From Zanthoxylum bungeanum (lineage: Eukaryota > Streptophyta > Magnoliopsida > Sapindales > Rutaceae), in assembly GCA_019454045.1 (NCBI GenBank), contig SKCR01006513.1:434001-498000 (forward strand): a stretch of DNA of 64,000 nt, in the 5' to 3' direction. This document shows, one piece after another, positions 6,541 through 63,346 of the stretch (the stretch's first letter is position 1; each line of letters opens with the position of its first letter). A model generated the notes under the pieces. The model saw only the letters and a program-made list of their open reading frames with translations, had not been told where the DNA came from and made no database searches. The position numbers and the translations under genes were made by a program.

Positions 6541-7245
6541 CCTGACAACTAACCATAAGTGCGGTTCGGTTCCGAACTGCAAACAAGACCGAAACCGAAC
6601 AAGGTCAAAATCGAAATCGAACTAGTCAACGATTCAGAAGCGATTCCAAACCAAACCAGAACCACCAAATGATCGTTCCGGTTTCGGTTCTTCAAAATTT
6701 AATAACTGAACCAAACCGGAATCTAGGTTAGAACCGAACTGAATCCAAATCTTAAGAACCGAACCGCAAAACCGACAAAATTTATTAATTAATGAAGATA
6801 GTATTTTAATTAATATTTATTAATTTATACTTTAATTAATAAAAAAAATAATTTATCAAGGTAATGTTAATTTTTTTTCCATAAACATTTAACTTAATAT
6901 TATGTATTGTGATTATATGAATATTACCTAATTACTAATTTACAAATTATTACTTGTGTCATATTTTATAAAGGGCTCATAATTTAGTCATATATATTAA
7001 TAAGATTATTAATATCAATAAAATAAATTATGTATACAATAAAATAAATTTGTCAAATCCTTAGTTGTAATTTGGTTCCGGTTCTAGGAATTGATTCTGG
7101 TTCAAAAATGATTCCGGTTCGGAACTGAAGAGGAATTGGATCGAACCGAAGCGTACATTGTACCGTTCGGTTCCGGTTCCTCTTTCCGCAAGAACCGGAA
7201 CCGCCGGTTTGGTTTCGGTTCGATTTCGAAATCGAATTACAATTG
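6541..7245. mobile_element. Degenerate GGTTCGG-rich inverted-repeat element
   Basis: The left arm (about 6555-6770) is dense in CGGTTC/GAACCG words and the right arm (about 7065-7245) carries the same words in the opposite sense, around a very AT-rich core. This is the architecture of the much better preserved hAT-type element at 14571-15358. Ends and target duplication are eroded, so the limits are approximate. Confidence 0.45.
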
Positions 7246-7572
7246 AACCTATTGACAATCAAATTATAAGTCATTTACCATCAAGCACACTCATTAGTGA
7301 TTGTTTTGATTTGATAAAATTCTTGTTAGTTATTTTCACTCAAACAAATCAGTAATGTAATATTGCAATTCCATGTCAGGTCAAGCATGAGTTTGTTTTG
7401 TCTCACGTTAAAATAGTCTTCCCAAATCTCCTCCTATGAAAAATATATTTTTAATTCTTTTATTATTATACCTTATTGTTTGTATAATGTGATGTGTTTA
7501 TTAAAAAAAAAAATACGAAGCATTTTGTCTATTAAATTAATGTTAAAATTAACATCAATATTATATATAAAT
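7246..7572. other. Intergenic, no feature seen
   Basis: AT-rich sequence between a degenerate DNA element and the first LTR-type repeat. No coding frame, RNA gene or repeat is supported. Confidence 0.4.
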
Positions 7573-34685: not shown

Positions 34686-34699
34686 ATCTCCCACTTGCA

Positions 34700-42694: not shown

Positions 42695-43800
42695 ATACGA
42701 GTCACTGGTGAATAGGTGTCAAAGTAATCAAGGCCTTCCTTTTGTCTATAACCTTTTATGACAAGTCTTACCTTGTACTTATCTATTAATCCATCAGGTT
42801 TCATCTTCCGTTTGAATATCCATTTGTAGCTCAGTGGCTTACAACTTAGAGGAAGATCAACCAACTCCCAAGTATGGTTCTGTATGATGGAATCAATCTC
42901 ACTGTTGATAGCCTCTTTCCATAAAGGTATTTCTGGCGAAGACATTACTTCCTTATAGCTTTGAGGCTTATTTTCTAATAAGTATGTCAGAAAATCGGGA
43001 CCAAACGACTTAAATGTTCTTGCTCTTTTTCTACATCTAGGTTCAATTATCTCAATGTTTGTTATTTTTGACAATATCAATAGTTCTTTTGAGAGACTTT
43101 ATTCTTTGTCTTTCCTTACAAGGAAAGTCTCTTCAAAAAATATCGAATTCTTTGACTCAATTATAATATTCAGGACTTGTGTACCAAGAATCGATACGCA
43201 CTACTGTTGCGAGCATATCCAATGAATATACAATCAACAGTTTTAGGGTCCTATTCTAACCTTTTTAGGTTTAGGAAGCATTACTTTGGCAATATACCCC
43301 AAGACTTTCAGATATTTGTAGGAAGGTACATGAACTTTCCACAACTCATATGGTGTCTTGTCCAATCTTCTGTGACAAAGCTTGTTTAGAACGTAGTTCG
43401 TGGAAAGCAAGGCTTCCCACTACAAGTTCTGGGGTAAACTAGAGCTTGTAAACATGACGTTCATCATTTCCTTCAAAGTCTGATTTTTACGCTCAGCAAT
43501 CCCGTTTTGTCGAGGCAAATAAGGAGTAGTGGTTTCATGAAAAATTACATAATTGGAACAATATTTACCAAATGGTGACACATATTCACCACCTCTATCG
43601 CTCCTAATTCTTTTTATTTTCTTACCGAGTTGATTTTGAACATCGTTCTTATAGTGTACAAAGCTCTCAATAGCTTCATCTTTGCTCCTCAGTAAATACA
43701 CATAACAGAATCTTGTGCTATCATCGATAAAAGTGACAAAGTACTTTTTACTGCCTATTATTTGCACAATATTCATATCACACACATCAGTGTGTACAAT
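42695..43800 (-). pseudogene. Copia O: integrase and start of reverse transcriptase (broken)
   Basis: Minus strand: 43785-43420 holds the integrase core with VTFIDDSTRFCYVYLLRSKD (first Asp), RIRSDRGGEY (second Asp) and PRQNGIAERKNQTL (Glu). 43419-43081 continues with stops (RRLDKTPYELW). 43010-42695 holds the start of reverse transcriptase (WKEAINSEIDSI, KPLSYKWIFKRKMKPDG, EGLDYFDTYSPVT), cut by C2. On the right it is cut by gypsy G just after a VHTDVCD-type motif. Confidence 0.85.
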
Positions 43801-45652
43801 GTCAAATGATTACTAGTATCTAATAGGTTGATTGATTGATTTAAAATGGTGATGGTTTTAAAATTAAAAACAAGTAAATAAAATAACACGAAAGTATGAT
43901 TAAGAAAATTCAATATTAAGAAACTATCTAGGGTTGTGAATCTTTCTAATATCTTTTAAAAAGATGAAGTGGTTATTTAATGTTTTTGTAATAAATCGAT
44001 TTACTAACCTGGAACATGAAATTATGCAAAAGCCTTTGTCGATGGTCAGACGTAAATACCCAGTATAACCCAATTGAACCATATGTCTATGTCAACCAAA
44101 TTACCTGGATTCATTAAGATTATATTCTAATTAAGGTTACCCCCGCCCGACAGGTATATGTCTATCCTGTAAGGAAATCTATTAAAGGGTTATTTATCCT
44201 CAAGGAAGATCGTGGCCTATTGAGTCTAAGGCTGAAACCTAAAATTCATTTGTTAAGTTTATTTTAGGTTTACCAAATCAATCTTATTATTGGCCAGTTA
44301 ACAAGACGCATTAAGCTTAAGACTTAATAAGTAAACCTTTAAATTACTCAAACTATAAAATAACCCCTTATAAACTGATGATATTAGAATTCATCACAAC
44401 CTTAGATAACTAACTTAGTTACGACACATAACTAGGCTAGTAAAAACTTAAAAGTAAAGACATAAAGTAAAAATGCAGAAAATTAAATGTGGAAAAGTAA
44501 ATACTGAAAAGTAAAATTACAAAAATAAAATGCTAGGGTTAAAGAATCTAATTTTACCACTACTAATTTAGATATCTCCCTTAATATAATATATTAACTT
44601 GTGATAACATTACCAACCAGCCATATAAGCGGTAATCTGATTAAGTCAAATTAAGTCCAACCAGCCATTAAGGCAGTAATATTTGTCTATAAACCTGCCA
44701 TATATGCGGTAAATTACCAACCGACCAACCAGGCGGTATCATTGCTTAGTCAAGTTTAAACCTATTTAAAATAAATTACCAACCGACCAATATAGCGGTA
44801 TCATTATTAAGTCAAATTTTAAATAGTGAAATATTTACCTTTTACCCCAGCAAGGGGGAGTTACCTCCTCATTGCTTGAAAAGTAAAAACTGAAAAAGTA
44901 AAGAAATGAAAGGATTGTGCGTAAAAGTAAATTGCGGAAAGTAAAAACTGAAAAGTAAAGAAAAGAAAGTGCGAAAGCAAAAATTAATTACTGAAAGCTG
45001 TAAATAAACAAACAATATACAATCTTCTTAGTTATTCTTTAGGAATTTCAAAGAATAAAGTATGAATTTACAAATGAAATGGCTTGGTATTTATAGGTAA
45101 AATTTTACCTCCACCAAATCCATTATTAATTGCTTCACTAATTGCTTATCATGTTTGGTGGTGATTTGATAATTTTTATTATTTATTTATTAATTTATTT
45201 TTTTGCTTTGAAAATGACTTTAATAATTACACACAAAACACTTCTGGATGTTTCATCAATTTCGGGCATGAAATCTTCAGAAAATTGAAATTATTTTGTC
45301 TTTTAAAGTTGTATATCTTTGAGTCTTCTTTAATCTGGAACTTGAATCAGCTCAATCCGATATCGGAGTAAAACGTTATGCCCAAAAAACAACAGATATG
45401 CAAAATTGGAATTTCTAAAACTGCACTTTATCAAAACGCCCTTTCAAGTTTCCAATCTCCAAAATTAATATGTCAAGTCCAATATTTTCCCTTATTTGAC
45501 CCAAATTTCATCCTAAATGATTTCATTGAGTCCCAATATTATTTTATCTACAAAATAAACTAAAACATATCAAAACATTCATCAAACCCGAGAAACTAAA
45601 CAAAATATTAAGTAAAATGGGCGGTACATATTGATATATTTTCCGCTCAACA
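43801..45652 (-). repeat. 3' LTR of gypsy G (end-truncated)
   Basis: 1,852 bp matching 60011-61944. The first roughly 105 bp (plus orientation) of the partner LTR are missing, and the junction to O is abrupt (ACAAT|GTCAAATG). It ends TTTTCCGCTCAACA. It carries the ATTACC...GGTAAT mini-hairpin array at about 44605-44810. Confidence 0.82.
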
Positions 45653-46952
45653 CACCCTCAAACCTAACATTTTGCTAGTCCTCGAGCAAAACAACAAAAT
45701 AAAAATAAAATTAAACTAAGCCACTTTCGTAGGGATCACGATTGCATTTAGCGTATGGGACAAACCTTTAAACCCCTAGGTGTCCCTAGTGGACGAGTTG
45801 TAGTCTCGTGAGGGTTTACAGCAATGATACCCATAAATATTTTACAAAAGTAAAAAGATAGTAAAACTAATGCACAAAAAGTAAAAAGACAAGAGAAAAT
45901 ATAATAAAGAAGTTAGTGACTAATCAGGTGAAACTTCTACTCCAAGTCTCTAGTTGTTTTCTATCTTTCTAAATTATTGAATAAGAAAATTCTCTGATTA
46001 TATTTACCATTCTTCGTATACACAGCCAACAAAATATTAATCAATCTCATTTTTGCCCACAACAGTCACAAGTGTAGTTGATAAGAGAGTAATATTTTTG
46101 TTCTAAAGTTTTATCAGAATTCACACCTTTTTGTAGTAATATAATAATTTTTCTGATTTTTTCTTTGATTTTTTATTATTTTTTTATTTATATACAATAT
46201 CTTTCCATCTATGTAGCGAGTTTTGGGTCGGTGGCTCCCAAACCAGTTGGATTTAGAGCATCAGGTGTTAAGACACCCCTACGGACTTAATTACTCAGAC
46301 TTCAGATATGTATATATTTTGCAACATCATTGATCCATGTAGTGAGCTTTGGGCTAGTGACTCCCAGACCAGTTGGCTTTAGGGCACTAGATGTTAAAAC
46401 ACCCTTACAGACTTAATAACTCGGATCTCAGATGTTTTTTTTAACTCCATCACTTTTTGAGATGCTTCATCCATTAGACTAGAGCACTGAATATTACAAA
46501 CTTTTCAATTACAGCTCATGTCTGTATGTTACTATGCATATTGATAATACCTGTCAACTGAGCATATGAAGATCCATTTTAGTCAGTTTTATGGAGAATT
46601 TACAAATTAATTAATTCAAAAAGAATAAATAAAAATTAACTTGTTCCGAAAATAGGTTTGAAATACGTCTCAGGAGTGGAAACTCCTTACACAACTATCT
46701 CTTACCAATTTCACTCGATTAATCAAACACAAAAACATAAAATATAAAAATATAAAAATATAAAAATATAAATTTGATTTTTGTAAAATCTTTCAATTTT
46801 TTTGAATTTTTTCGAAAAAATTTGGACTAAAATAAGATACTATTGACTAATCCCCTCCCCCAAACCTAAATGAGACATTATCCCCAATGTCTTAAACAGT
46901 AGAAGAAAAGTTTAGAAGATAGTACCTGGTTAGCTGAAATTCTACAGGAAAA
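45653..46952 (-). other. Gypsy G: polypurine tract and 3' untranslated region
   Basis: The tract reads GTTTGAGGGTG on the minus strand just right of the LTR. Further right are two imperfect direct repeats of about 103 bp (46208-46310 and 46333-46434; both carry GTGGCTCCCA/GTGACTCCCA and CCAGTTGG) and an AT-rich 8-bp microsatellite near 46740-46772. No coding is supported up to the LOG stop codon. Confidence 0.65.
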
Positions 46953-47605
46953 TTAAAGGTTAAGATCCAGATTAATCCGACGCTTCTTACCACGATCATC
47001 CTCAGACCATTTTATCTTGGAAATGATAGGGTCAATTTGTGGTTCAAATGCTAAGATTTGGTCAATTAGATCCGGGGCAGTTCTGGCAGTAAAGATGAGT
47101 TCTTTCATAGGTTTTGTCACGAACATTTTCTTTGGGCATCATCAAGAAACACACAAAGAAAGTCATAAAATCCCTCAATGTTAAACAGCCCAATCGGTTT
47201 CTGGTGTATGTTCAAGTTCACCTAAGATAGCACTATAAAAATTTCCTCCAATGTGCCCAAGCCACCTGGCAAAGCAATAAAAGCATCACCACGGTTAATC
47301 ATTTCTATCAGTCGTTCAGACATACCTGGCACAATTAGTTCTTCTCTGTTTGATGGTCCAATAAGATTTGCCTCCGCCAAGGGTTTTGGGATGATTCCCA
47401 AGACTTGACTGCCTCCTTCCTGTACAGCCTTTGAAACGATCTCCATAAGTCCAAGATTGCCACCGCCATATACTAGGTGCATGTTCCTTTCAGCTAAGAT
47501 TCGACCCAATTCCTATTCTGCTTCTATGTATTGTGGTTTAACACCAACACTAGTATCGCAAAACACACAGATGTTTTCAACTCGTCTTCTTGAAGTGGCT
47601 TCCAT
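46953..47605 (-). pseudogene. LOG-type cytokinin riboside 5'-monophosphate phosphoribohydrolase, captured copy
   Basis: LOG enzymes release active cytokinin bases from their nucleotides. From the ATG at 47605 the frame gives VENICVFCDTSVG (first Rossmann strand), HLVYGGGNLGLM at residues 43-54, IIPKPL, then SERLIEM with the family's catalytic Arg at 98 and PGGLGTLEE at 113-121 (PGGxGTxxE, Glu121). The region is about 217 codons, the normal LOG length, and has no introns, whereas plant LOG genes have several, so it derives from a spliced RNA. Lesions: TAG at codon 31 (47515-47513), TAG at codon 128 (47224-47222, where relatives have Trp), and a frameshift near 47125-47135, after which the frame resumes (KELIFTARTAPDLIDQ) and ends RINLDLNL. 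It lies between the Cys-rich frame and the 3' LTR of gypsy G. Confidence 0.85.
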
Positions 47606-47856
47606 GTTGTACTCTGGATGTCTTCAAAAGTGCAATGATGAGTCGAATTTATAACACCTGAAAAGGGTGAGTAAAATAATAGCACTAGTACCTGCCAAAT
47701 AACAATTATTAGTTAAATAGTAAAATAAATCGTGATAGCCAAAAAAATCTGGATCCTGTCGAAGAAAATAAAAGAAAACAACAAAACAAATCACAATTAT
47801 TAGGAAAAGACAAAGAGATATAATATGTACAAGAAACGTAGTGACTTGATTAACGT

Positions 47857-48398
47857 CTATGCATTAGGGACAAGCTTCCCATCCAATTTTCTTATAAATT
47901 GGCAAACAGGGTCTTTTTGAGTCAGATTCCCGAGACTTAACTGTTGTCTTTCTTTTTGGAATTTTGTATGTAATTTGCGTATGGCAATATGAACATATCC
48001 ACTGGGATGCGTCTCAAGAGTTGAAGATAAATCATCTACAGACTCCTTACTCAAGCCATCCTTAATGTATTTAATTTTATCTTCGCGTTTATCAGACATC
48101 ATTCCTAAAGAACGACAACGAGTATTGCAATTCTAGCATGCACATTTGTAACAAACACCCATTTGCTTAGCTCTACGTTTCTTTACATAGGTGCTTTTTT
48201 TCCAAAACCGGGATTACAGGAATCAGAATACTCACCTGCTAATCGGACCCGTGCTTCGATTACCCAACGAATGTCATTAGGAACGCCATTAATCATTAGT
48301 AGTCTCATCCGTTCCAAGCGAGCTTTATAAACTTTCATCAGAGATTTTTGAGGGAGAGAAGGAAATTTCTTATGAAGATTTACGATAGCTTCTTCCAT
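47857..48398 (-). pseudogene. Small basic Cys-rich protein, nucleic-acid-binding-like (broken)
   Basis: From the ATG at 48398 (MEEAIVNLHKKF; an upstream in-frame ATG is at 48416) the frame runs 71 codons. It then shifts at a 7-A run (48195-48201) and continues as STYVKKRRAKQMGVCYKC, a strongly basic stretch running into closely spaced cysteines (C-x2-C-x-C-x2-C-x3-C, with a TAG at 48135-48133 inside). Then come RCRSLGMMSDKRED, IKYIKDG and a charged tail to 47857, about 180 codons in all. The basic run directly followed by CxxC, then a (I/F)KxIKDG-like strand, recalls the nucleic-acid-binding proteins (silencing-suppressor type) of plant flexiviruses. That likeness is from recollection of the family and needs a profile search. 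It could also be an unrelated plant zinc-binding protein. Confidence 0.6.
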
Positions 48399-48479
48399 CC
48401 TAAAATAACTTGACATGTGAAAACTAAACACACCAAATTAAATCACACCAAATCACAATATATACAAAAATTACATTGG

Positions 48480-48707
48480 TTACCTCCTTGCGAGCGCTAA
48501 GTTAACGTCGTCAGCTAGACGTGACTGCCCGAAGTAGGCTGGATCTGAAAGTGTGACACTTTCTTTTTGTCGCTCAAATGTTCTCCTCAATAGTGTTTGA
48601 AACATAGCTTCATATTTTTTTAACTGAGCTAGCACTTCTGCCATTACTGGTTCTTTTTCATGCTCCTGGCCGTTGTTCTGTTGCTGGAATTCAGGTGGTG
48701 GATAGTT
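48480..48707 (-). pseudogene. Gypsy G: gag, C-terminal end
   Basis: Continuation of gag across copia C3. The minus-strand frame KNYPPPEFQQQNNGQEHEK, then VMAEVLAQLKKYEAMFQTLL, ends NLALARR and a stop at 48480-48482. The Pro/Gln-rich stretch followed by a helix is usual for the end of Athila-type gag. Only 82 bp separate this stop from the Cys-rich frame, so pol is absent rather than hidden. Confidence 0.75.
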
Positions 48708-48712
48708 CTTTT

Positions 48713-50630
48713 TGTTAGACATTATGACCCATAGCGTCACTGTTTTGTAAATGATATTGTATTATTGTATAAAATTAACTATGTGATAATGAAATGCCTT
48801 TTTGCCATTTTGTAATTTATTTACTTTGATATATAAATGGCGAAAGTCCATATGATTAGTTCCGTATTGAGAAGATATGAGACAGTATCAATACATAAAG
48901 GATTAATCATTAAATATCCCTAGTCGGAGTATTATCGAGATAGGACATCGATAATGCGGAATAGACTAGTATTGCACTTGTGCACGTTGTGAGGGCACAA
49001 CAGCATAGTTCTCATATATTTAAGTATAGGATACTTATGCAAGTGCGATAGGAGGTTGTGTTTTACCGATGGTACGGAAAACAGCTTCGCTCTGGATAGA
49101 CCCGCGGAATCCCATTGGTAGTATGTCTGCGTGTCTATGGGAGGCCGCATCAGGGTAGGTGTATATGGTCTTAACCTGAGACTTGCATCGCTAGTACTTG
49201 CGACAATCGGTAAACTTTGGTTTTGATGGTTGGGGGCTTTAACCGTTCTGTGTTCACCACTTCTGGGTTTATCAGGAATCGTAGTGTACTGGGTGTGATG
49301 TCAAGATGGAAGTGTCACTTCAGACATATGGAGTTGATGATCGGCAGGATACAGAACTAGTGCTCTATAAAAGGTTGCAACCGTCGGGGCAATATGACTA
49401 GGTCAGGATTGTCCGATTTAAAGAGACTAGTTGCTTGATGTCCGATATATGTTTCGTACGGGGCAGACACATTTCCAGCCCCAGGCCTAACATGTGATCG
49501 TCCGACACTGGATCGATGTACGCAATACTACGGTATACTACGCTTGATATAGATATAATATTCCTATAAGAATATTTCTGGAGAATTGGGTAGGCATCGC
49601 GCTTTGCTAGAAGCCAACCTTGTCTTGTAAATCGGTAAAAACGTAGTACTAGGTACGTACGTGTTCGGATCATCCGACGACCGTATTTACTGCCAACATA
49701 TCCGGAGATCTCTCGGGTCGCTTCCCTGAAGATTCACCTATGATATTTGATTCGAACTTTATTAATCTTGGATTAATTACGGAGAAACTTTATCTTGGAT
49801 AAAATGCCTTATTTTGAGAGAGAACGATTAATTTGGAATTAATCGGTAAAATAATATATTCGATATATTAACGAAATTAGATTTCGACGCGGAATTAAAA
49901 TCGGATTTTAATTCGGGCAAACGAATCAATTTAGAATTAATTCGTTAGCGACGTGAATAGTGATTTCGCTAGGCATAATTATTTAATTTACGTCGCGACG
50001 GAAATTCGTTAATCGGAATTAGCGAAACCGAGCCCGAAAGTGTTTGCGGACACATTCGTATTTTGAAACGAGTAGGACCCGCAAGTCACATCGTGAAGTC
50101 ACATCACTTGACATGACTAGTTGATGGATGTCACAAGTCACTTTATTAAAGTGACTAGATGTCACTATTCATGAAAGAAGTTGGTGGAGCCAATTAAAGG
50201 CTTTTTGGAGGGAAATTGAGTTTTGACTTTTGGAAAAGCCATATACCAAATATTTGGTATTTGATATCATTATTATTCTTTGAGAAGAATTATCAAAAAA
50301 AGAAAAGCTCTCCTCTCTCTCACATGCCGTGAGTTCTTAAGGCAAAGAAGAATTTTTTTCTTCATTTTCTCTTTTTGCTAGCACATCTTGAATCAAATGA
50401 GGTGATAGTGGAAACCACCTTGGAGCTTGGAATTCACAAAGCTTGGAGCTTTCATCCATTTCCTCCTCTTGGCCGAAACTTCAAGGAACTTGGGCTTCCA
50501 TTTTGTTCATCTTCTTCATCACACAAGCTTTGTAAGTATGATTCCGCCATGCTTCAAGTTTATTATATATTCACTTTTGTTGTATTTCATATGCTTAATC
50601 TTTCCTTGGGACATATAATAGAAACCAACA
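48713..50630 (+). repeat. 5' LTR of copia C3
   Basis: 1,918 bp from TGTTAGACATTATGACC to GAAACCAACA. Same family as the LTRs of C1 (which lies in reverse orientation), including the TTAATCTTGGATTAA-type hairpins at about 49742-49970. Confidence 0.92.
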
Positions 50631-52829
50631 ATGGTATCAGAGCTATGTTTAAGCATGAAATACATTAGGTTAAAATTTGGGTAAAATTGATTGAAGCATG
50701 TTCTTGTGAAATTTGATGAATGAGTATGCTTACATGTATATAGAATGATGTTATATGGAATCAATTTTGAGAAAAATGCATTGGATGATTTTTCCCCAAA
50801 AATTTAACCTTGGCCGAATGTGATGTTCCTTGCTTGGGATTGGAATTTTTTGTGTACAAATCATTGGATGACTTTAAACGTATACGGAACGTAGATTAGT
50901 GATTCAATCGGATTGAAAAACAAATCGACACAAAAATCATCCTTGGCCGAATGTAATGGACATGAAAATGGACTTGATTTTTTTGTTCAAATAAATGTTG
51001 GACATGTGTTTTGAACAAGTGATGATTAATAATAAATTTGTTGTTTTGGAAATATTTGGTTTAATGTATTAATCATGGATTTACACTTTAATTAATTGGA
51101 TTTTAAAATTTGGAATATTAAAATAATTAATGGGCTTAATTGTAATATTGGGCTTGAATTATTATATTTGGGCATAATGGGCTTGGTTGGGCCAAGTATT
51201 TGGGCCAAAAGGATTGGATCCAATTTGGGCCTAAATCACTCCATTAAGTCCAAATATGGTAAAATGGGCTTTTATGTTTATTGGGCCTTATGGGCTTGAA
51301 ATTGATTTTATGGCATTTAAGGGTGATTCCTTATTTGGGTTTGGCAATTGGGTTTGACCCACATTGACCAAAGCCCAAGCCTTAATAAATCAATTGAAAG
51401 CCCATCGGACTTTAATTAAACAAACATTGGATGTTAGTTGGGCTTTGAGACCCAATTAGATTAGATTTAGAATCTAAGTCTTTAAAGCACATTAAAAGTG
51501 TAAACATTTAATTTGGAATTAAATTAATTGAATTAGTATTGAATACGAATTAAATTAGATTTAATAAGTAGTTCGATATAATTCGCGAATTCGTACCTTA
51601 TGTACTTATTCTCAAAGAGTTGGACTCGCGCAAAATCAAAAACCGTTGTTTGAACATTGGATGATCACTTAAACAAAGACTAATTAATTGGATTAGATGG
51701 TTGTAAGCATGTCTTGATTGAATATATATGTATGTGATGAATGAATAGTGTATATCGGATGGATATTAGAAGGGAAAGGGTAATTCTAGGAATTATTGTA
51801 AATTCAGAATTTATAAATTGGACCTGCGTGTCCAGCCTTATCTCTTTTATCTCTTTGTATTCCTTTCTCACCTAATTCCCCTCAATGTTAATGAGGTTTC
51901 TCTTATTGTATTATGTAATGGGTGTAGAAGTAGAATAGTGCTAGCGGGGAGAGGAATGGAGTGATTTGTTCTAGGAACAAGTTGTTTATATATCCATCCG
52001 CATATCACTATTAATTTACTTTACGCGCTTTATGATGTTTTAGAAGCATGCTTAAGGGTGTATGTTGATGAGACCTAACAAAGATAATAAATTGGTTGCC
52101 AATTACGCAAAATCCCTCAATCTATATTAAGCGATATCCTTCCATTGAATGATTCTTGTTCAAGATCCAATTGGCATTGGTTTGTTGGCCAAAGTCAAGA
52201 CCTTGTCAATTAGGATGTACTTGAATCATGAGAGTTTTTGTTCCACATCGGTGTCTAGTCCAAGTTGTGATTTGTTGGCCAAAGTCAAGATCACTTCTTG
52301 TCCAAAGACATTGATTACGAAACTTTCCTTGTCAATGGGTCCCGCTTAACTGGAATCATTAGGTTTGTTGTGCCAAAGCCAAGGCCTAGATGATTCGGAG
52401 GATAAGGTTAGGAAAATGTATTAGATACATTGACATAAGTATTGTACATATGTTTTGGACTTGGATGTCCACCTAACCGGATCTGGGAATTGGATTGGAT
52501 CCAATTGATCTGTGAGATCTACCTAGTTAAGTAGCATACAGCTTGTTGGCCAAAGTCAAGGTTGTGTGTTATTTAACGGGATCCTAGCCCACTAGGAAAT
52601 AGGATTTCCCGAGTTCTCAACAGAGGGTTAGAGACTTGATGAAAATAGTGGGAGGCTAGTATGTGAATTTGCAATTTCGTTCAGATACTTTGCCTTACGC
52701 GTATTTCAAAATTTTTCGTCTATTTATGAATTAGTTGGACTAATACATTGTTATTTTTCTTGTAACAGTTTGACTGTACCCATTTTATCGTCAACTAGAT
52801 AGTTAGACTATCGTGGTTGAGATGCTAGC
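50631..52829 (+). other. Copia C3: PBS and long leader
   Basis: The primer-binding site TGGTATCAGAGC (50632-50643) is the standard complement of initiator tRNA-Met. The 2.2-kb leader has no supported coding. Its second half has four copies of TTGTTGGCCAAAGTCAAG: 52182-52199, 52272-52289, 52365-52383 (diverged) and 52543-52560. Confidence 0.75.
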
Positions 52830-54072
52830 AAGGGAAATGTGCGTGACATCATCATGGGTGATAATGTCTTTAAGGCACAAACTTCGCTGACTGGGAAATG
52901 AACTCAAGATAGTACTTGGGGCTGAGAGGCTACTGTACACTATACAGACACCTCTCCGCCTAGACCCACTGAGCCACTTGAGCTGGAGTTATGGAAAACT
53001 CACAGCGAGGATTGTGACACAGCTCAGGCTGTTATGTTAGCTTCAATGACTCAACACTTTCGTCGCCAGAATAGGGACTTGGATCCTTATAATATGATGG
53101 CTAGACTACAAGATCTCCACCGCACCAATAAGCGGATGGAGAGGTATGAGTGTTGTGAAGAAACTCTTCCGCACCCGAATGACTGAAGGCACATCAGTTG
53201 AGGTCCACGGGACTCAAATGATCGCCGATATTGATGAGTTGGCCAATATGGGAATAGTCTTGGAGGCTGAGCTGACTGTAGATTTGATCTTACAGTCACT
53301 TCCCGATACTTGGAAACAAATCATAATCAACTATAAGTTGATACCGATGACACTCTTGGAGAGCTGTTATCCATGCTGAAGGAGTCTGAAAAAGAACTCC
53401 TAAAAGGGGGCAAGCGCGAGGCGCACTATGCATCGACCTCTCAGGGGCCAAGGGCTGGGCCAAGCCACTGGAGGGGTGAAGAAGAGGAAATATAAGAACA
53501 AGGGTAAGGGCAAGTTGACAAAGGCTTCTGGGAAGCCAAGGGACAATCTCAATATGTCTGCCTCAAATGCGGCAAAAAGGGTCACTGGAAACGTGACTGC
53601 CGAGTGGGCAAAGGACAAAAGGAGGATATTAAGGCAGGCAAGGCTCTAGCCTCTGGTACGTTTGTTATGGAAATAAATATGACTACTTCTAGTCTTAAAA
53701 ATTGGATTTTTGATTCTGGTTGTGCTGCTCATATTTGTACTGATTTGCAGGATCTGCAGAATAGTAAGGATGCTGGCTTCAGGGGAGGTTGACCTACGAG
53801 TCGAAAACGGAACTCCAGTTGCTGTTTTGGCTGTAGGAAATTTTGTTTTGGAACTGCCCTCGGGGCATGTACTTAAACTTTTGAACTGTTATTATATACC
53901 TAGTTTAACTAGGAATATCATATCTGTATCTTTGTTAACCCAGCATGGGTACACTTTTGTATTTAGAAACACTGGGTGTTATTTATATAAAAATGATGCA
54001 GAAATTTACACTGCTGTTGCAAATAATGGTCTTTATATTTTGAATATAAATGAATCTCCTAAACGTAAATGA
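52830..54072 (+). pseudogene. Copia C3: gag, zinc knuckle and protease (broken)
   Basis: gag similarity starts near 52845 (DIIMGDNVFKA, parallel to C1 gag) and continues at 53146-53379 in another frame (LFRTRMTEGTSVEVHGTQMI, ILQSLPDTWKQIIINY). A CCHC knuckle (CLKCGKKGHWKRDC) lies near 53560-53605 but out of frame with its surroundings. The protease active site appears as FDSGCAAHIC near 53710-53740, and 53710-54072 continues the protease (LKLLNCYYIPSLTRNIISVS). At least four frame changes. Confidence 0.8.
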
Positions 54073-54114
54073 CAAACAAAAGGCTCAAAATGAGTAATCT
54101 AAAATGATGCTTAC

Positions 54115-54949
54115 ATGTGGCATTGTCGTCTAGGACACATCAACAAGACTCGCATATCCACACTTTCGAAGAGTGGGTACTTGGACGGATTTGATCCTAA
54201 TTCATATGATGTCTGCGAATCTTGTCTTTTAGGAAAAATGCCTAAATCACCTTTTAGTGGTAAAGGTGAACGTGCCACAGAACTGTTAGCCCGTTCATAG
54301 TGACGTATGTGGGCCCATGTCTAGCCAGGCTAGAGGTGGATATCATTACTTCGTAACCTTTACGGATGATGCATCTCGTTATGGTTATGTGTATCTAATG
54401 AAACACAAGTCGGAAACTTTTGAGAAATTCAAAGAGTTTCGACACGAAGTAGAAAAACAAACAGGCAAGAGTATTAAGACATTGCGGTCAGACCGTGGTG
54501 GCGAATACTTAAGTTATGAGTTTCAAGATTACTTGAAAGAATATGGTATTCTTTCACAGTGGACTCCTCCTGGAACACCGCAATTAAACGGTGTGTCTGA
54601 ACGGAGAAACCGTACCTTGTTAGACATGGTAAGGTCGATGATGAGTCGCACTGAGCTACCAATATCCTTCTGGGGATACGCATTAAACAGTGCAGTACTT
54701 ATTTTGAATAAGGTTCCGTCAAAGTCTGTTGAACAGACTCCATACGAGATATGGACAGGAAGGAAACCAGGTTTCTCTTTCCTGAAGATTTGGGGATGCT
54801 GGGCATATGTTAAACGTTTGGAAGGTACCAAACTAGAACCAAATCAGATAAATGCCTTTTCGTGGGATATCCTAGGGAAACCAAAGGATATTACTTCTAT
54901 CACCCACAAGAGAACAAAGTATTTGTTGCTCTATTGCATTTTTCCTTGA
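54115..54949 (+). pseudogene. Copia C3: integrase
   Basis: 54115-54300 holds the zinc-binding head (WHCRLGHINKTRI, CESCLLGK) and ends at a TAG; a frame change follows. 54317-54949 holds the core with its three acidic residues: VTFTDDASRYGYVY, LRSDRGGEYLS and NGVSERRNRTLLDMV. It then continues into SFWGYALNSAVLILNKVPSK and a GRKPGFSFLKIWGC motif. The end is frameshifted near 54860. It would insert cDNA into chromosomes if intact. Confidence 0.88.
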
Positions 54950-55460
54950 GAAGGAATTCTTAGATGCATGTGGTAGTGGGAGGAAAGTAGAGCTCGATGA
55001 AAATCGTAGTGATACTGTTCCTGGCAATGAATCAACGACGGAACATGAACAACACCATCCGGGATGAGTCTGTACCACAATCTTCATATACACAAGGACC
55101 GCGTAGGTCGGAGAGAGTCAGGACAGTACCTGAGAGGTATGGGTTCCTGATCTCGCCTCATGTAGATATTAATCTTATTGAGGAAATGAACCGGCTACGT
55201 ATGAGGAAGCAATACAGGATATTGATTCCGCTTTATGGCAAGAAGCCATGAAGTCCGAGATGGATTCCATGTATGCCAACCAAGTTTGGACACTGGTTGA
55301 TGCACCAGAAGGCGTAAAGCCTATTGGATGCAGATGGATCTTCAAGAAGAAGACCGACATGGATGGCAACGTGCAAACGTACAAAGCTAGGCTTGTAGCA
55401 AAGGGGTATCGTCAACAATATGGTATTGATTATGACGAACTTTCTCACCCGTTGCCATGA
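54950..55460 (+). pseudogene. Copia C3: integrase-RT linker and start of RT
   Basis: A linker region with an acidic, Asn-rich stretch (54997-55250), then the N-terminal reverse-transcriptase motifs in 55248-55460: MKSEMDSMYANQVWTLVDAP, GCRWIFKKKTDMDGN and ARLVAKGYRQQYGIDYDE. It is joined to the next frame by a one-step frameshift near 55440-55457 (YDELSHPLP where relatives have an ETFSPV-type motif). Confidence 0.82.
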
Positions 55461-56764
55461 TTAAATCCATTCGGATAATGCTTGCAATAGCTGCATATTT
55501 CGATTACGAGATATGGCAGATGGACGTTAAAACCGCTTTCCTTAGCGGAAACCTTTTGGAGGATGTTTATATGCAACAGCCTGACGGTTTTATCGTACCT
55601 AGACTTGCAAACAAGGTTTGTAAGTTAAATCGATCCATTTATGGATTGAAGCAAGCATCACGGTCATGGAATCAACGTTTTGATGAGATCATAAAAGAAT
55701 ATGATTTCGTGCAAAACGAAGATGACCCTTGTGTATACAAGAAGGTTAGTGGGAGAGCACTGACTTTTATTGTCCTTTATGTCGACGATGTATTGCTTAT
55801 AGGCAATGACATTCCCATGCTAACGTTGGTGAAAGCTTGGCTTTCATTAAAATTCTCCATGAAAGATCTGGGAGAAGCAGCCTTTATTCTGGGAATAAAG
55901 ATCTACCGGGATAGATCTAGAAAACTGCTTGGACTCTCCCAGAGTACATATATTGACAAAGTGTTGAAGCGATTCAGCATGGATCAATCCAAGAAAGGAT
56001 TGATGCCAATGTTACATGGTATCTCTCTGTCTAAGGACATGTGTCCTAAGACTCAAGAAGAGAGAGATAACATGAGTCGGATACCGTTCGCCTCGGCAGT
56101 CGAATCGATCATGTATGCCATGATATGTACACGACCTGATGTGTCATATGCTTTGAGCATGTGCAGTCGCTATCAGGCCGATCCAGGTGAAGGTCACTGG
56201 ATGGCAGTTAAGAATATCCTTAAGTATCTTAGACGAACTAAGGATGCTTTCTTAATTTACGGAGAAGGAGAACTTGTGGTATCCGGGTATGCCGATGCAA
56301 GTTTCCAAACTGACAATGATGACTTCAAGTCGCAATCGGGGTACATTTTTTGTTTGAATAACGGAGCAGTGAGCTGGAAATCTTCCAAGCAAGATACTGT
56401 TGCCGATTCAACAACAGAAGCGGAGTATATTGCTGCGTCGGAAGCAGCAAAGGAGGCAGTTTGGATCCGAAAATTCCTAATTGGATTAGGAGTAGTTCCG
56501 TTAGCTGCTGAGCCCGTTCCATTGTATTGTGACAATAACGGGGCTATAGCACAAGCTAAGGAACCAAGGTCTCATCAACGATCCAAGCATGTTCTTCGGC
56601 ATTACCATCTGATTCGAGAGATTATACATCGTGGCGATGTAAAGGACGAGAAGGTCGCATCAGATAACAACATTGCAGATCAGCTGACGAAGGCTGTTTA
56701 TACGCATGTGTTTGAAAGACATATACATAGTTCAGGTATTAGATGCTTGAGTGACTGGCTATAG
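55457..56764 (+). CDS. Copia C3: reverse transcriptase and RNase H, open for 435 codons
   Basis: Longest retroelement frame in the window. Reverse transcriptase: SIRIMLAIAAYFDYEIWQMD, VKTAFLSGNLLEDVYM, IYGLKQASRSWNQ, and the catalytic YVDD box in VLYVDDVLLIGND. RNase H: VVSGYADASFQTD (Asp), DSTTEAEYIAASEAAKEAVW (Glu), PLYCDNNGAIAQAKEP (Asp), IADQLTKAV, ending CLSDWL. All catalytic residues are present. The start is not an initiation codon of an independent protein: this is the downstream part of a gag-pol polyprotein cut off by an upstream frameshift. Confidence 0.92.
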   Translation: MIKSIRIMLAIAAYFDYEIWQMDVKTAFLSGNLLEDVYMQQPDGFIVPRLANKVCKLNRSIYGLKQASRSWNQRFDEIIKEYDFVQNEDDPCVYKKVSGRALTFIVLYVDDVLLIGNDIPMLTLVKAWLSLKFSMKDLGEAAFILGIKIYRDRSRKLLGLSQSTYIDKVLKRFSMDQSKKGLMPMLHGISLSKDMCPKTQEERDNMSRIPFASAVESIMYAMICTRPDVSYALSMCSRYQADPGEGHWMAVKNILKYLRRTKDAFLIYGEGELVVSGYADASFQTDNDDFKSQSGYIFCLNNGAVSWKSSKQDTVADSTTEAEYIAASEAAKEAVWIRKFLIGLGVVPLAAEPVPLYCDNNGAIAQAKEPRSHQRSKHVLRHYHLIREIIHRGDVKDEKVASDNNIADQLTKAVYTHVFERHIHSSGIRCLSDWL

Positions 56765-56765
56765 G

Positions 56766-56778
56766 CCAAGTGGGAGAT
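56766..56778 (+). promoter_or_regulatory. Polypurine tract of copia C3
   Basis: CCAAGTGGGAGAT directly before the 3' LTR and just after the pol stop. It is the plus-strand DNA priming site. The same tract precedes the 3' LTRs of C1 and C2 and, in a related form, of the LARD. Confidence 0.88.
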
Positions 56779-58705
56779 TGTTAGACATTATGACCCATAG
56801 CGTCACTGTTTTGTAAATGATATTGTATTATTGTACAAAATTAAATATGTGATAATGAAATTGCCTTTTGCCATTTTGTAATTTATTTACTTTGATATAT
56901 AAATGGCGAAAGTCCATATGATTAATTCCGTATTGAGATGATATGAGACAGTATCAATACATAAAGGATTAATCATTAAATATTCCTAGTCGGAGTATTA
57001 TCGAGATAGGACATCGATAATGCGAAATAGACTAGTATTGCACTTGTGCACGTTGTGAGGGCACAACAGCATAGTTCTCATATATTTAAGTATAGGATAC
57101 TTATGCAAGTGCGATAGGAGGTTGTGTTTTACCGATGGTACGGAAAACAGCTTCGCTCTGGATAGACCCCGCGGAATCCCATTGGTAGTATGTCTGCGTG
57201 TCTATGGGAGGCCGCATCAGGGTAGGTGTATATGGTCTTAACCTGAGACTTGCATCGCTAGTACTTGCGACAATCGGTAAACTTTGGTTTTGGTGGTTGG
57301 GGGCTTTAACCGGTTCTGTGTTCACCACTTCTGGTTTTATCGGGAATCGTAGTGTACTGGGTGTGATGTCAAGATGGAAGTGTCACTTCAGACATATGGA
57401 GTTGATGATCGCGCAGGATACAGAACTAGTGCTCTATAAAAGGTTGCAACCGTCGGGGCAATATGACTAGGTCAGGATTGTCCGATTTAAAGAGACTAGT
57501 TGCTTGATGTCCGATATATGTTTCGTACGGGGCAGACACATTTCCAGCCCCAGGCCTAACATGTGATCGTCCGACACTGGATCGATGTACGCAATACTAC
57601 GGTATACTACGCTTGATATAGATCTATATTCCTATAAGAATATTTCTGGAGATTTGGGTAGGCATCGCGCTTTGCTAGAAGCCAACCTTGTCTTGTAAAT
57701 CGGTAAAAACGTAGTACTAGGTACGTACGTGTTCGGATCATCCGACGACCGTATTTACTGCCAACATATCCGGAGATCTCTCGGGTCGCTTCCTGAAGAT
57801 TCACCTATGATATTTGATTCGAACTTTATTAATCTTGGATTAATTACGGAGAAACTTTATCTTGGATAAAATGCCTTATTTTGAGAGAGAACGATTAATT
57901 TGGAATTAATCGGTAAAATAATATATTCGATATATTAAACGAAATTAGATTTCGACGCGGAATTAAAATCGGATTTTAATTCGGGCAAACGAATCAATTT
58001 AGAATTAATTCGTTAGCGACGTGAATAGTGATTTCGCTAGGCATAATTATTTAATTTACGTCGCGACGGAAATTCGTTAATTCGGAATTAGCGAAACCGA
58101 GCCCGAAAGTGTTTGCGGACACATTCGTATTTTGAAACGAGTGGGACCCGCAAGTCACATCGCGAAGTCACATCACTTGACATGACTAGTTGATGGATGT
58201 CACAAGTCACTTTATTAAAGTGACTAGATGTCACTATTCATGAAAGAAGTTGGTGGAGCCAATTAAAGGCTTTTGGAGGGAAATTTGAGTTTGACTTTTT
58301 GGAAAAGCCATATACCAAATATTTGGTATTTGATATCATTATTATTCTTTGAGAAAGAATTATCAAAAAAAAGAAAAGCTCTCCTTCTCTCTCACATTGC
58401 CGTGAGTTGCTTAAGGCAAAGAAGAATTTTTTTCTTCATTTTCTCTTTTTGCTAGCACATCTTGGAATCAAATGAGGTGATAGGGAAACCACCTTGGAGC
58501 TTGGAATTCACAAAGCTTGGAGCTTTCATCCATTTCCTCCTCTTGGCCGAAACTTCAAGGAACTTGGGCTTCCATCTTTGTTCATCTTCTTCATCACACA
58601 AGCTTTGTAAGTATGATTCCGCCATGCTTCAAGTTTATTATATATTCACTTTTGTTGTATTTCATATGCTTAATCTTTCCTTGGGACATATAATAGAAAC
58701 CAACA
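56779..58705 (+). repeat. 3' LTR of copia C3
   Basis: 1,927 bp, TGTTAGACATTATGACC to CCAACA, nearly the same as 48713-50630. Differences seen by eye are mostly single-base gains in homopolymers, especially near 58260-58400. Confidence 0.92.
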
Positions 58706-58710
58706 CTTTT

Positions 58711-59772
58711 ACCCTGAATTGTTGCTCCATGAAAAGTTAGGATGATTCATCCACCCTGGGTTGTAGGTGTTGGAATATGGATTGTTCCCCTGTCTGTTGA
58801 AATTGTTGACATAATTCACCTCTCTTCAAGTTGGTTTGGCTCTGGTGCTCCTCCAAAAGATGAACTTGTGGCTCTAATATTGCTTTATGTGCTGAGAGTC
58901 TCCATGTATTTGCATATCTGATCCGGCTTGGCACTGACTTCTGTATTTGCTCCAACTTCATAAATTCCTGTAATTCTTTGAATCGTGCTCCTTTGTTTGG
59001 ACACAAGGAATTATTGGTGGCCATTTCTTCTTCTTCGATTAGGTTCCAAGCTTGATCTTCTCCTTTTGCCATCAAAGCTCCTTCAACAGCAAGCATCAAT
59101 TGTGGTTCTCATCAGTCTAGAAAGTCCATTATAGAAAGTTTGGACTTGAAGCCATTTTGGAATTTCATGGTGAGGACATTTCCGGAGCAAATCTTTGTAC
59201 CTTTCCCAAGCTTCGTAGAGAGTTTCCGAATTAAGTTGTATAAATTATGTGATGTCATTCCTCAGTTTTACTGTTCTAGCTGGTGGAAAGTACTTTGCAA
59301 TGAATTTGGTGGCTAGAGTGTTCCACGTTGTGATGGAACCTGCTGGCAGTGAATGTAGCCAAGCTTTTGCTCTATGTTTCAAAGAATATGGGAAAACTCG
59401 CAGTCTCATAGCTTCTTCAGCTCCCCGGTTGTAATTGAAAGTGCCGCAAACTTCCAGGAAGTTGCTGATGTGGGCATTAGGATCTTCAGTTGTATTTCCT
59501 CCAAACTAAACTGACTGTTGAATCATCTGAATGTAAGTTTTGTATGTCACCCGCATTTGCTATTAGAGAGGAAGTCCAATACAGGAAATGAGGCCATCTA
59601 CCACCGGAATGGTTCTGTCTCGAATAGAAATTGGTGGTGCAACCTCCAAAGGTTCAGGTTCCATGTTAACAATTATTTCTTGGCCTTCTCGCCTTTCTCT
59701 TCTTAACTCTCTGATGGTTCTTTCAATCTCAGGGTCAAACAGACGGATTTCAAAGCTTCTGGCTCGTCTCAT
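58711..59772 (-). pseudogene. Gypsy G: gag, N-terminal and central part
   Basis: Starts at the ATG 59772-59770 (MRRARSFEIRLFDPEIERTI), with a basic/acidic head typical of Athila-type gag. After a stop near 59563 the capsid-like domain goes on: FGGNTTEDPNAHISNFLEVC, RVFPYSLKHRAKAWLHSLPA, TKFIAKYFPP and TLYEAWERYKDLLRKCPHH, the standard retrotransposon gag core. 59099-58737 continues the C-terminal part. Several stops and frameshifts. It is cut at 58710 by copia C3 and continues at 48707. Confidence 0.85.
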
Positions 59773-59880
59773 GTAGTGCCTGAGAATCTGAAACACAAGA
59801 AAACAAAAACAATAAGTAAAAAGAAAAATAGATACAAGTAAATGTATCTAACCCCAAAACTAATAGTGAAAGATAAATAA

Positions 59881-59899
59881 ATCTCCGACAACAGTGCCA
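59881..59899 (-). promoter_or_regulatory. Primer-binding site of gypsy G
   Basis: Minus strand TGGCACTGTTGTCGGAGAT, seven bases inside the 5' LTR. It is a mutated form of the TGGCGCC-GTTG-type site, complementary to tRNA-Asp, used by many plant gypsy (Athila/Tat) elements. This sets the direction of the element. Confidence 0.75.
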
Positions 59900-59905
59900 A
59901 AAACT

Positions 59906-61944
59906 TGATATGTGCTTTCACACATGTATAACGCAAGCGCACGTATCATTCAAGTAGTATAAAAAGTATCGATCCCACGAGGACTTAATACATATTCTAT
60001 TAATTTTATGAGGTCAAATGATTACTAGTATCTAACAGGTTGATTGATTGATTTAAAATGGTGATGGTTTTAAACTTAAAAACAAGTAAATAAAATAACA
60101 CGAAAGTAGGATTAAGAAAATTCAATATTAAGAAACTATCTAGGGTTGTGAATCTTTCTAATATCTTTTAAAAAGATGAAGTGGTTATTTCATGTATGTG
60201 TAATAAATCATTTTACTAACCTGGAACACGAAATTATGCAAAAGCCTCTGTCGATGGTCAGACGTAAATACCCAGTATAACCCAATTGAACCATATGTCT
60301 ATGTCAACCAAATTACCTAGATTCATTAAGATTAAGTTTCAATTAAGGTTACCCCCACCCGACAGGTATATTTCTATCCTGTAAGAAAATCTATTAAAGA
60401 GTTATCTATTCTCAAGGAAGATCGTGGGCTATTAAGTCTAAGGCTGAAACCTAAAATTCCTTTGTCAAGTTTATTTTAGGTTTACCAAATCAATCTTATT
60501 AGTAGCCAGTTAACAAGACGCATTAAGCTTAAAACATAATAAGTAAACCTTTAAATTACCCAAACTATAAAATAACCCCTTATAAATTGATGATATTAGA
60601 ATTCATCACAACCCTAGATAACTAACTTAGTTACGACACATAACTAGGGCTAGTAAAAACATAAAAGTAAAGACATAAAGTAAAAATGCTGAAAATTAAA
60701 TGCGGAAAAGTAAATACTGAAAAGTAAAATTATAAAAATAAAATGCTAGGGTTAAAGGATCTACTTTTACCACTACTAATTTAGATATCTCCCTTAATAT
60801 AATGTATTAACTTGTGATAACATTACCAACCAGCCATATAAGCGGTAATCTGATTAAGTCAAATTAAGTCCAACCAGCCATTAAGGCGGTAATATTTGTC
60901 CATAAACCTGCCATATAGACGGTAAATTACCAACCGACCAACCAGGCGGTATCCTTGCTTAGTCAAGTTTAAACCAGTTTAAAATAAATTACCAACCAAC
61001 CAATATAGCGGTATCCTTATTAAGTCAAATTTTAAATAGTGAATATATTATAATTAAGGAGATTAATCTAAATAGCAATAATAAAATCTTTACCTTTTAC
61101 CCCAGTAAGGGGGAGTTACCTCTTCATTGCTTGAAAAGTAAAAACTGAAAAGTAAAGAAATGAAAGGATTGTGCGTAAAAGTAAATTGCGGAAAGTAAAA
61201 ACTGAAAAGTAAAGAAAAGAAAGTGCGAAAGCAAAAATTAATTACTGAAAGCTATAAATAAACAAACAAGATACAATCTTCTTAGTTATTCTTTAGGAAT
61301 TTCAAAGAAGAAAGTATGAAATTACAAATGAAATGGCTTGGTATTTATAGGTAAAATTTTGCCTCCATCAAATTTTCCACCAAATCCATTATTAATTTCT
61401 CCACTAATTACTCCACCAAATCCATTATTAATTGCTCCACTAATTGCTTATCATGTTTGGTGGTGATTTGATAATTTTTATTATTAATTTATTAATTTAT
61501 TTTTTTGCTTTGAAAATGATTACATACAACATACTTATTGATGTTTCATCAATTTCGGGCATGAAATCTTCAGAATTCGAAATTATTTTGTCTTTGAAAA
61601 TTGTAGAGCTTTAAGTCTTCTTTAATCTGGAACTTAAATTAGCTCAATCCGATATCGGAGTAAAAAGTTATGCCCAAAATACGACAGATGTGCAAAACTG
61701 GAATTTCCAAAACTGTACTTTTTCAAAACGCTCTTTCAAGTTTCCAATCTCCCAAATTAATATGTCAAGTCCAATATTTTCCCTTATTTGACCCACATTT
61801 CGTCCTAAATGATTTCATTGAGTCCCAATATTATTTTATCTGTAAAATAAACTAAAACATATCAAAACGTTCATCAAACCCGAGAAACTAAACAAAATAT
61901 TAAGTAAAAGGGGCGGTAACTATTGATATATTTTCCGCTCATCA
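59906..61944 (-). repeat. 5' LTR of gypsy G
   Basis: 2,039 bp, plus orientation TGATATGTGCTTTCACACAT to TTTTCCGCTCATCA. It is complete, unlike its partner at 43801. It contains the ATTACC...GGTAAT mini-hairpin array (about 60820-61015) and a local duplication of a CCACCAAATCCATTATTAAT unit near 61375-61440. Confidence 0.87.
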
Positions 61945-63346
61945 CACTTATGTTGGCTATCAATTGCAAATTTAGGTATAAGGTCCATGTTAATTAATTT
62001 ACGCATTATATCATAATTAACATGTCCTAACCTCTCATGCCATACAATTTTGTGACTCAATAATATAAGCGGAAATTGTAGTTTTATTAATAGCACTGTG
62101 TCGATCGACAGTCATTACATTGAATTTGAAAAGGCCATCAGTGATGTATCATTTTCCTACATACACATCGTTTTTTGTTAATACAATTTTATCAGAAACA
62201 AATACAAGCTTAAAAATATCATTGCTAAGGAGAGAGCCCGAGACCAATTCTTCTGAATATCAGGAACATGTAAAATATTTTTCAATGTAAGCTCTTTTCC
62301 AGATGTCATCTTCGGAACCATTGTACCTTGTCCAACCACTCTTAAGGTAGACGAGTTTCCCATTGTTAGATGATCGCCGCCATCGATCTTCTGATACGAG
62401 GAAAACATCTTGCTATCTGCACAGATATGATGAGTACCCCCAGTGTCTACCCATCATTCTCTCGAATTCCCAACCAGGTTGACTTTGTTTATCACTGATG
62501 AGAGGTTCATCTCTGAGATCTCTTCAGTCAGCTGCTCATCTTCAGTGACATGGGCCTCATTTTTCTTTTTCTTACCCTTGTCCTGATACTTCTTGTTTCT
62601 ACGGTCCTTTACCATGTGACCGTTCTTTCCATAGTTGTAGCACTTCCTCTTGAACTTCTTGTTAGATTGGGAAGAATCAGATTTCTCTTCTTGCTACCCT
62701 TTACACCCTCGATGATGTTGGCCTTAGACTCCATATTCTTGTAGCTGGCCTTCTTGGACTTCCGATTGTCATCTTAGATCCTTAATCGAACTCCGAGGTC
62801 TTCAAGGCTCATCTGTTTCTTTTTGTGTTTCAGATAGCTCTTGAAGTCCTTCCATGATGGAGGTAACTTTTTAATTATGGTGGCAACTTGAAATCATTCC
62901 TTCATCCAGTATTTCATGAATGATCAATTATAGTTCACCCAACTGAGACATTATCGTTCTTGAATCTACCATTTTGTAGTCCATGAACCTACCCACGATA
63001 AATTTCTTTTGCCCGGAATCCTCTGTTTTGTATTTCTTCTCGAGAGATTCCAAGAGAATATTCACAGAAGTCATGTCTTGGTACACATTATACATGATAT
63101 TGTCAAGTCCACCAAAAAGGTAGTTCTTGCACAAGAAGTCGTCAGATGACCAGTCTCTTCTCGCAGTTGCTTGGCTGTTTCTTATTCACCCTCCATAGGA
63201 CCCAGAGGATCTTTGTGATACTTAGCCAACTGGAGAGTTTTCAGGTAGAACAATATTTTACTCTGTCACTGTTTAAAGTTTGCCCCACTAAACTTTTCCG
63301 GCTTTTCTCCATGAGAGACCGGTACTGTGATGTTTACGCTAGCCAT
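61945..63346 (-). pseudogene. Copia O: gag, zinc knuckle and protease (broken)
   Basis: gag starts at the ATG 63346-63344 (MASVNITVPVSHGEKPEKFS), with a stop after about 20 residues. 63134-62928 continues (MYNVYQDMTSVNILLESLEK, FIVGRFMDYKMVDS). A zinc knuckle with one Cys changed (CYNYGKNGHMVKDR) is near 62600-62645, and the protease site [12 protein letters not shown] near 62415-62450. 62408-62178 carries the end of the protease region ([16 protein letters not shown]). The GAG-pre-integrase head at 61945-61985 (KFAIDSQHKC) is cut by gypsy G. Confidence 0.82.

Follow-up and report, generated by a model that had tools for sequence, protein, structure and literature searches.

The 64,000-nt stretch of Zanthoxylum bungeanum DNA analysed here (hereafter the window; contig SKCR01006513.1 of assembly GCA_019454045.1, positions 434,001-498,000, forward strand) contains a minus-strand long terminal repeat (LTR) retrotransposon of the Gypsy type with two genes besides gag. 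One encodes a small basic cysteine-rich protein (CRP) that, by sequence comparison, is a homologue of the nucleic-acid-binding proteins (NABPs) of carlaviruses, and the other an enzyme of the LONELY GUY (LOG) type. We found that CRP and LOG are fixed parts of an amplified, pol-bearing family, in which their order and spacing are conserved. The anatomy of this family is almost certainly gag, protease, reverse transcriptase, ribonuclease H (RNase H), integrase, CRP, LOG and LTR. We consider it probable that the window holds a degenerate copy of such an element, which has lost its pol and is interrupted by a Copia insertion, and that the CRP and LOG pair would act on silencing, transcription and cytokinin.

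The evidence for the family comes from searches of the genome with both genes. On the CRP side, 46456 first-look candidates were obtained, of which the best 150 were scored and the best 30 cut out as loci; on the LOG side, 150 of 60859 candidates were scored and 29 loci besides the window were cut out. All 30 CRP loci have the integrase C-terminus upstream of CRP, and 29 of them have LOG downstream, the thirtieth stopping at the contig end. The integrase end lies 127-147 bp from CRP, and CRP lies 230-279 bp from LOG (45 loci each, in lists that include places fetched twice, such as L010, L039 and L050). Two loci, L039 and L044, contain about 4 kb with protease, reverse transcriptase, RNase H and integrase pieces between gag and CRP, arranged in the order that is typical of Gypsy elements and followed by CRP and LOG, with frames that are also broken there. 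The rve, Integrase_H2C2 and RT_RNaseH pieces of L039 score above the Pfam cut-off, and RVP_2 and RVT_1 below it. The window excepted, the 150 scored LOG places have 86-91% identity to the window piece; 129 of the 150 are free of stops. LTR sequence stands behind LOG in all six 10-kb loci that were fetched, which rules out that LOG is a host locus with pseudogenes.

CRP was found within reach in 18 of the 29 LOG loci besides the window; in L028 it lies about 2.9 kb from LOG, with an insert (seen in L043) between the two. Eleven loci, L028 included, show no CRP within reach, a point against a fixed pair in that the two genes are not inseparable. Nine LOG loci (L013, which is the same place as L040, together with L012, L017, L021, L022, L025, L032, L037 and L038) have in common a different sequence of some 1.3 kb ahead of LOG, part of which is also present in L015. 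These L040-type loci are a second carrier of LOG, without CRP within reach and, in L040, also without pol. In L040 this carrier is placed at 5850-8330, and its two LTR ends are 86% identical over 318 bp. The other frames of L040, 141 and 296 aa long, gave no Pfam match above the cut-off; a CCHC-like stretch is present in one, and one is acidic.

An earlier reading of the window (the original prediction) had placed the element in a non-autonomous family that lacks pol and carries two accessory genes. CRP and LOG do belong to an amplified family, as it proposed, but that family has pol-bearing members, among them L039 and L044. When the entire 3.96-Gb genome was searched with a 151-bp probe over the join between gag and the pol tail, the copy in the window was the sole one to span the junction among the best 40 of 2399 candidates, which were those scored. 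The other 39 matches cover the gag side only, with 94-98% identity, and end at base 95 (one at 101). Among these 40, the loss of pol in the window copy is a private deletion, which a more distant copy may share.

A separate, non-autonomous pol-deleted subfamily does exist. Seventeen of the 30 CRP loci have the RNase H and integrase core, and in 13 the protease stands directly ahead of the integrase C-terminus. The distance between these two was measured in the 13 pol-deleted loci and in L026, L041, L042 and L043, and amounts to 194-196 bp in 16 of these 17 loci and to 135 bp in L061. This near-constant spacing fits a single ancestral deletion that was later multiplied. The protease is retained in this subfamily, whereas it is lost in the window copy, and membership of the window copy in the subfamily lacks support. 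We weighed the shared-deletion loci, the L040-type carrier and the absence of any pol domain from the window copy as points for a gag-only family similar to TR-GAG elements, which would borrow pol, carry two accessory genes and have the window copy as a typical member. Against such a family stand the junction spanned by the window copy alone and the missing protease, and we regard it as very improbable.

Comparison between copies shows that both CRP and LOG are under purifying selection. The ratio of nonsynonymous to synonymous divergence (dN/dS) was 0.180 among 21 stop-free copies of LOG (dN<dS in 210 of 210 pairs), in which third codon positions hold 60% of the differences, and 0.239 among 25 copies of CRP (dN<dS in 295 of 300 pairs). 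To lessen the bias that arises from selecting copies by the tested protein, we repeated the measurement for each gene in loci that had been picked by the other gene, with stops kept; LOG in CRP-chosen loci gave 0.177 (12 copies; 65 of 66 pairs) and CRP in LOG-chosen loci 0.293 (9 copies; 36 of 36 pairs). Gapped or split matches were excluded from all sets, which left 12 of the 29 LOG matches in CRP loci and 9 CRP copies from the LOG loci, of which 18 show CRP. L035 was left out of the CRP set because of a frameshift and a misaligned start. The estimates rest on the best-scoring gap-free copies, a choice that favours conserved ones and tells against our interpretation. The original prediction had looked to multiple copies and selection between them as support for an established family, and both were found: many genomic places keep the CRP-LOG order, with dN/dS of 0.18-0.29, well below 1.

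These values also bear on whether LOG and CRP are passengers, that is, host or viral sequences that were captured once and hitch-hike without use to the element. Stops in the window copy and in others, as well as the occurrence of LOG without CRP and of CRP without LOG, are in keeping with this idea. However, dN/dS stays low even in the sets chosen by the other gene, and CRP frames are open in 35 aligned relatives at 55-97% identity to the relative P0001. We judge the passenger explanation improbable.

The CRP of intact relatives has 182 aa, with a basic stretch ahead of a cysteine finger. Viral_NABP (E 0.012) and Carla_C4 (E 0.02) were the only Pfam families matched by the window CRP piece at E<=1. 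Three intact relatives tested singly (P0001, P0047 and P0058) scored 28.5-31.6 for Viral_NABP (cut-off 23) and 24.5-26.8 for Carla_C4 (cut-off 20.9). Both families were matched by 35 of 35 relatives at E<=0.01, with SHQ1 matched additionally by three. The Viral_NABP match begins ahead of the finger and runs from residue 34-38 to 120. A protein database search with the window CRP returned 271 matches, and 115 of the 120 listed carry a precomputed PF01623 assignment; the eight rows with a named organism among these 120 are from Xanthoceras, Parasponia, Populus, Orobanche, Acer and Rhamnella. The basic motif before the finger is present in 21 of 26 own copies and 34 of 35 relatives, and the finger itself, C-X2-C-X4-C-X3-C, in 22 of the 26 own copies, in 32 of the 35 relatives and in 71 of 80 listed proteins of at least 175 aa. 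Together, these profile matches support the homology of CRP to carlavirus NABPs and agree with the earlier proposal that the Cys-rich protein possibly binds nucleic acid.

Several observations weigh against this identification. The window CRP piece is below both Pfam cut-offs, and the three intact relatives reach just 24-32 bits over 32-87 residues. The finger spacing is unlike the C-X2-C-X9-C-X4-C given for the viral protein of Potato virus H in the available text of PMC3689765, and 4 of the 26 own copies and 3 of the 35 relatives do not have C-X2-C-X4-C-X3-C. The predicted CRP model is poor (AlphaFold; predicted local distance difference test 61, predicted template modelling score 0.27) and gives no fold support. 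The conserved C-terminal part (about residues 121-182) has no Pfam match. Among the further searches, a PDB sequence search returned no CRP match at E<=1, and viral contigs scanned with P0001 gave no match. A viral-contig candidate from CRP alignment A1, L075, was rejected as a chance match, with 35% identity over 59 residues inside a 573-aa frame that reads as an SbcC-like ATPase. Modest Pfam scores, differing cysteine spacing, a poor model and a C-terminal part outside the Pfam match could also be explained if CRP were a short zinc-ribbon protein of the element's own, such as a packaging RNA chaperone, with a convergent basic-plus-cysteine motif. We hold this to be unlikely, given that every one of the relatives matches both viral families and that the Viral_NABP match reaches ahead of the finger, and we retain homology to the viral proteins as the preferred reading.

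A scan of prokaryote assemblies yielded a single contig with CRP, L076 (DAIEQH010000041.1, 3330 bp). It is filed under Ca. Nomurabacteria, but has the look of retrotransposon DNA from a plant that contaminates this bin. The contig contains an open 496-aa RNase H-integrase frame, with 59% and 55% identity to pieces of L044, and after it an intact 182-aa CRP gene (67% identity). LOG is absent from the remaining 986 bp behind CRP, which is a further point against an obligatory pair. The position of CRP behind integrase without LOG suggests, from this one contig, that CRP has been associated with pol for longer and that LOG may have been added in some lineages.

The LOG-like gene of the family consists of 217 codons in a single uninterrupted frame. 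It matches At2g37210, a protein of solved structure (2a33; E 3.2e-43), and the motif PGGxGTxxE is present in 20 of 21 intact copies. Listed Populus LOGL10 proteins share 53-54% identity with a LOG copy of this genome. The protein P0131 (66% identity to LOG) has an N-terminal extension that, on reading, looks similar to the spacer preceding LOG in this family, which hints that the LOG lineage may also occur outside this genome. Three predicted Xanthoceras proteins of 290-359 aa (P0129, P0135 and P0153) have two LOG-like stretches each, perhaps through annotation fused across neighbouring copies.

The structure of the copy in the window is given in Table 1. The LTRs that had been predicted were recovered by BLAST as a pair (43801-45655 and 60013-61947) with 90.1% identity. 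Their Kimura two-parameter (K2P) distance is 0.051 (1844 ungapped sites; 102 gap columns), which, at plant substitution rates of 0.65-1.3e-8, places the insertion at roughly 2-4 million years ago. The 5' LTR seems to continue to about 59906, beside the primer binding site (PBS). This site, an imperfect match, was read as tRNA-Asp-like, as in the original prediction, and may be of the Athila type. Reading of the ends revealed no target duplication around the outer element. Its host site is an older Copia integrase frame, recognized on the 43.8-kb side by rve (E 2.3e-10) and on the 61.9-kb side by reading.

The internal DNA that belongs to the outer element is 45653-48712 plus 58706-59905. The original prediction overlooked a plus-strand Copia element, which interrupts the 3' part of gag and splits this gene in two. 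The LTRs of this nested Copia are 98.2% identical (BLAST; K2P 0.019), and it is flanked by a 5-bp target duplication (48708-48712 and 58706-58710). The gag, the small basic Cys-rich frame and the LOG frame behind it were all confirmed. The predicted absence of pol held in that protease, reverse transcriptase, RNase H and integrase were not found in 45620-49105 (locus L009) by tblastn with the pieces of relatives, nor in 58706-60012 on reading the frames. What is left of the pol frame is its short tail. The gag, CRP and LOG genes of the window copy are all interrupted by stops or frameshifts, and this copy is unable to make an intact CRP or LOG protein.

Table 1. Features of the outer element and of the Copia element nested in it (window positions)
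Feature	Position	Strand	Evidence and remarks
Outer element, LTR retrotransposon	~61944 to 43801	minus	LTR pair, gag, CRP, LOG
5' LTR, outer element	59906..61944	minus	BLAST pair, extended by reading to PBS-like site; inner end uncertain
tRNA-Asp-like PBS	59882..59899	minus	Read from sequence; imperfect match
5' part of gag, truncated by the Copia insertion; contains stops and a frameshift	58711..59772	minus	PF03732, E 4.6e-21
Younger nested Copia, not part of outer element	48713..58705	plus	LTRs 48713-50630 and 56778-58705; RVT_2 frame
gag, C-terminal piece beyond Copia insertion	48597..48710	minus	90% over 39 aa to L039 gag C-terminus
Tail of pol frame, deletion-joined to gag	48480..48596	minus	Junction probe; pol ends of L039, L041 and L044 compared
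CRP gene, carlavirus NABP homologue by sequence, frameshift and stop	47857..48398	minus	Frames, Pfam, relatives
LOG-like gene, intronless, two in-frame stops in first 162 codons and a frameshift	46953..47605	minus	PF03641, E 4.5e-30
Stretch without long frames, LOG to 3' LTR, about 1.3 kb	45653..46952	minus	Frame reading
3' LTR, outer element	43801..45652	minus	Without ~100 bp at outer end

Elsewhere in the window, overlapping repeats at 9149-31853 are related to the nested Copia, with about 70-80% identity on the opposite strand; they are up to 95% identical among themselves and represent further Copia-family copies or fragments. Two direct repeats, each about 2.3 kb long (32388-34687 and 40364-42696), are 91.6% identical.

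Athila elements have a tRNA-Asp-like PBS. The family described here is likely of the Athila type, judging from domain order, PBS, gag likeness and likeness of sequence. In such an element, LTR-driven RNA would give rise to gag-pol, and CRP and LOG would be made from spliced or otherwise separate messages. Acceptor-like sites precede both genes; they are not better conserved than the whole spacers ahead of CRP and LOG (38 and 36 copies; mean column majority about 93%), which counts against this part of the scheme. CRP would bind nucleic acid and either blunt the silencing of element RNA or activate host or element promoters, like its viral homologues. LOG would free active cytokinin and so favour dividing cells. 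By analogy with the viral proteins, some role of CRP in silencing or transcription during the cycle of the element has close to an even chance of being correct; a benefit to the element from LOG activity is possible, at a chance somewhat further below even.

The analogy draws on the available text of three reports, in which the CRP of Potato virus H suppressed local silencing (PMC3689765), a mandarivirus CRP suppressed silencing for single-stranded triggers (PMC12172455), and the p12 protein of Chrysanthemum virus B is described as a transcriptional activator in the nucleus and a suppressor in the cytoplasm (PMC7588395). More broadly, and more tentatively still, there may be a widespread clade of plant retrotransposons in whose env position stands a gene also found in positive-strand RNA viruses, for a silencing suppressor and transcription activator of the viral type, to which LOG was added in the lineage of this genome to form a two-gene set for host control. 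Such a set would shield element RNA and drive host cell division, and new copies could thereby reach the germ line. If this is true, plant RNA viruses and retroelements have exchanged genes, in either direction, and the viral gene may even have come from a retroelement. One extra gene of plant Gypsy elements here gains a testable identity, as a homologue of viral proteins with a reported anti-silencing role. RNA silencing is a defence that holds retrotransposons down; if CRP works, plant elements own a suppressor of the viral type, which purifying selection maintains in many copies. LOG, in turn, would tie the activity of the element to cytokinin, and element copies could inflate the number of LOG-like proteins in plant annotations.

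The capture of LOG by plant Gypsy elements is already known; for the viral NABP identity of CRP, the literature searched gave no precedent. Two Athila-like elements with LOGL4-like frames were reportedly described by Steinbauerova et al. in 2011 (Genetica 139:1543). LOG-type YgdH domains occur in Gypsy elements of Citrus sinensis and C. clementina and, when the filter is not applied, in those of Populus trichocarpa, in agreement with Steinbauerova 2011 (available text of PMC9289625). Like the present family, these Citrus and Populus elements are Gypsy elements with a LOG-type gene besides gag-pol; in the portions of text available, no NABP homologue is mentioned alongside. The present family differs in its very many copies, its pol-bearing and pol-deleted forms and its second, CRP-less carrier of LOG. 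The original prediction knew of no described family with this pair. LOG alone is described, as above; neither the CRP-LOG pair nor a retrotransposon with a carlavirus-type NABP was found in the literature, which was covered with few subscription journals and no supplements. Literature matches to PF01623 concern, in the text available, glyoxalase genes.

Athila-type elements (PMC7264820, PMC6317226, PMC11728184, each as far as available) likewise have a sense extra open reading frame between pol and the 3' LTR and the Gypsy domain order. Their extra frame is env-like; here, an NABP homologue and a LOG-like enzyme take its place. According to the accessible part of PMC7264820, the extra genes that plant Gypsy elements carry between pol and the 3' LTR are mostly of unknown origin and debated role. 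The survey in PMC6317226, again as far as available, counted extra frames from 250 codons up, and genes of 182 and 217 codons would escape this minimum, a possible reason for their having been overlooked.

The cysteine-rich NABPs of carlaviruses and mandariviruses (PF01623, PF05515) resemble CRP in having a basic stretch followed by a cysteine finger. CRP is retrotransposon-borne, is 182 aa long, has an additional C-terminal part and has a shorter finger loop; its gene lies between pol and the 3' LTR, whereas that of the viral NABP lies at the 3' end of the viral RNA genome. The putative LOG of the element has PF03641 and PGGxGTxxE in common with the cytokinin-activating LONELY GUY enzymes, and differs in being a single continuous frame within an LTR retrotransposon. 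The orchid Gypsy element with AlkB (PMC9289625, in the part available) also carries an enzyme domain found in plant RNA viruses, although its domain, lineage and hosts differ from those of the family described here.

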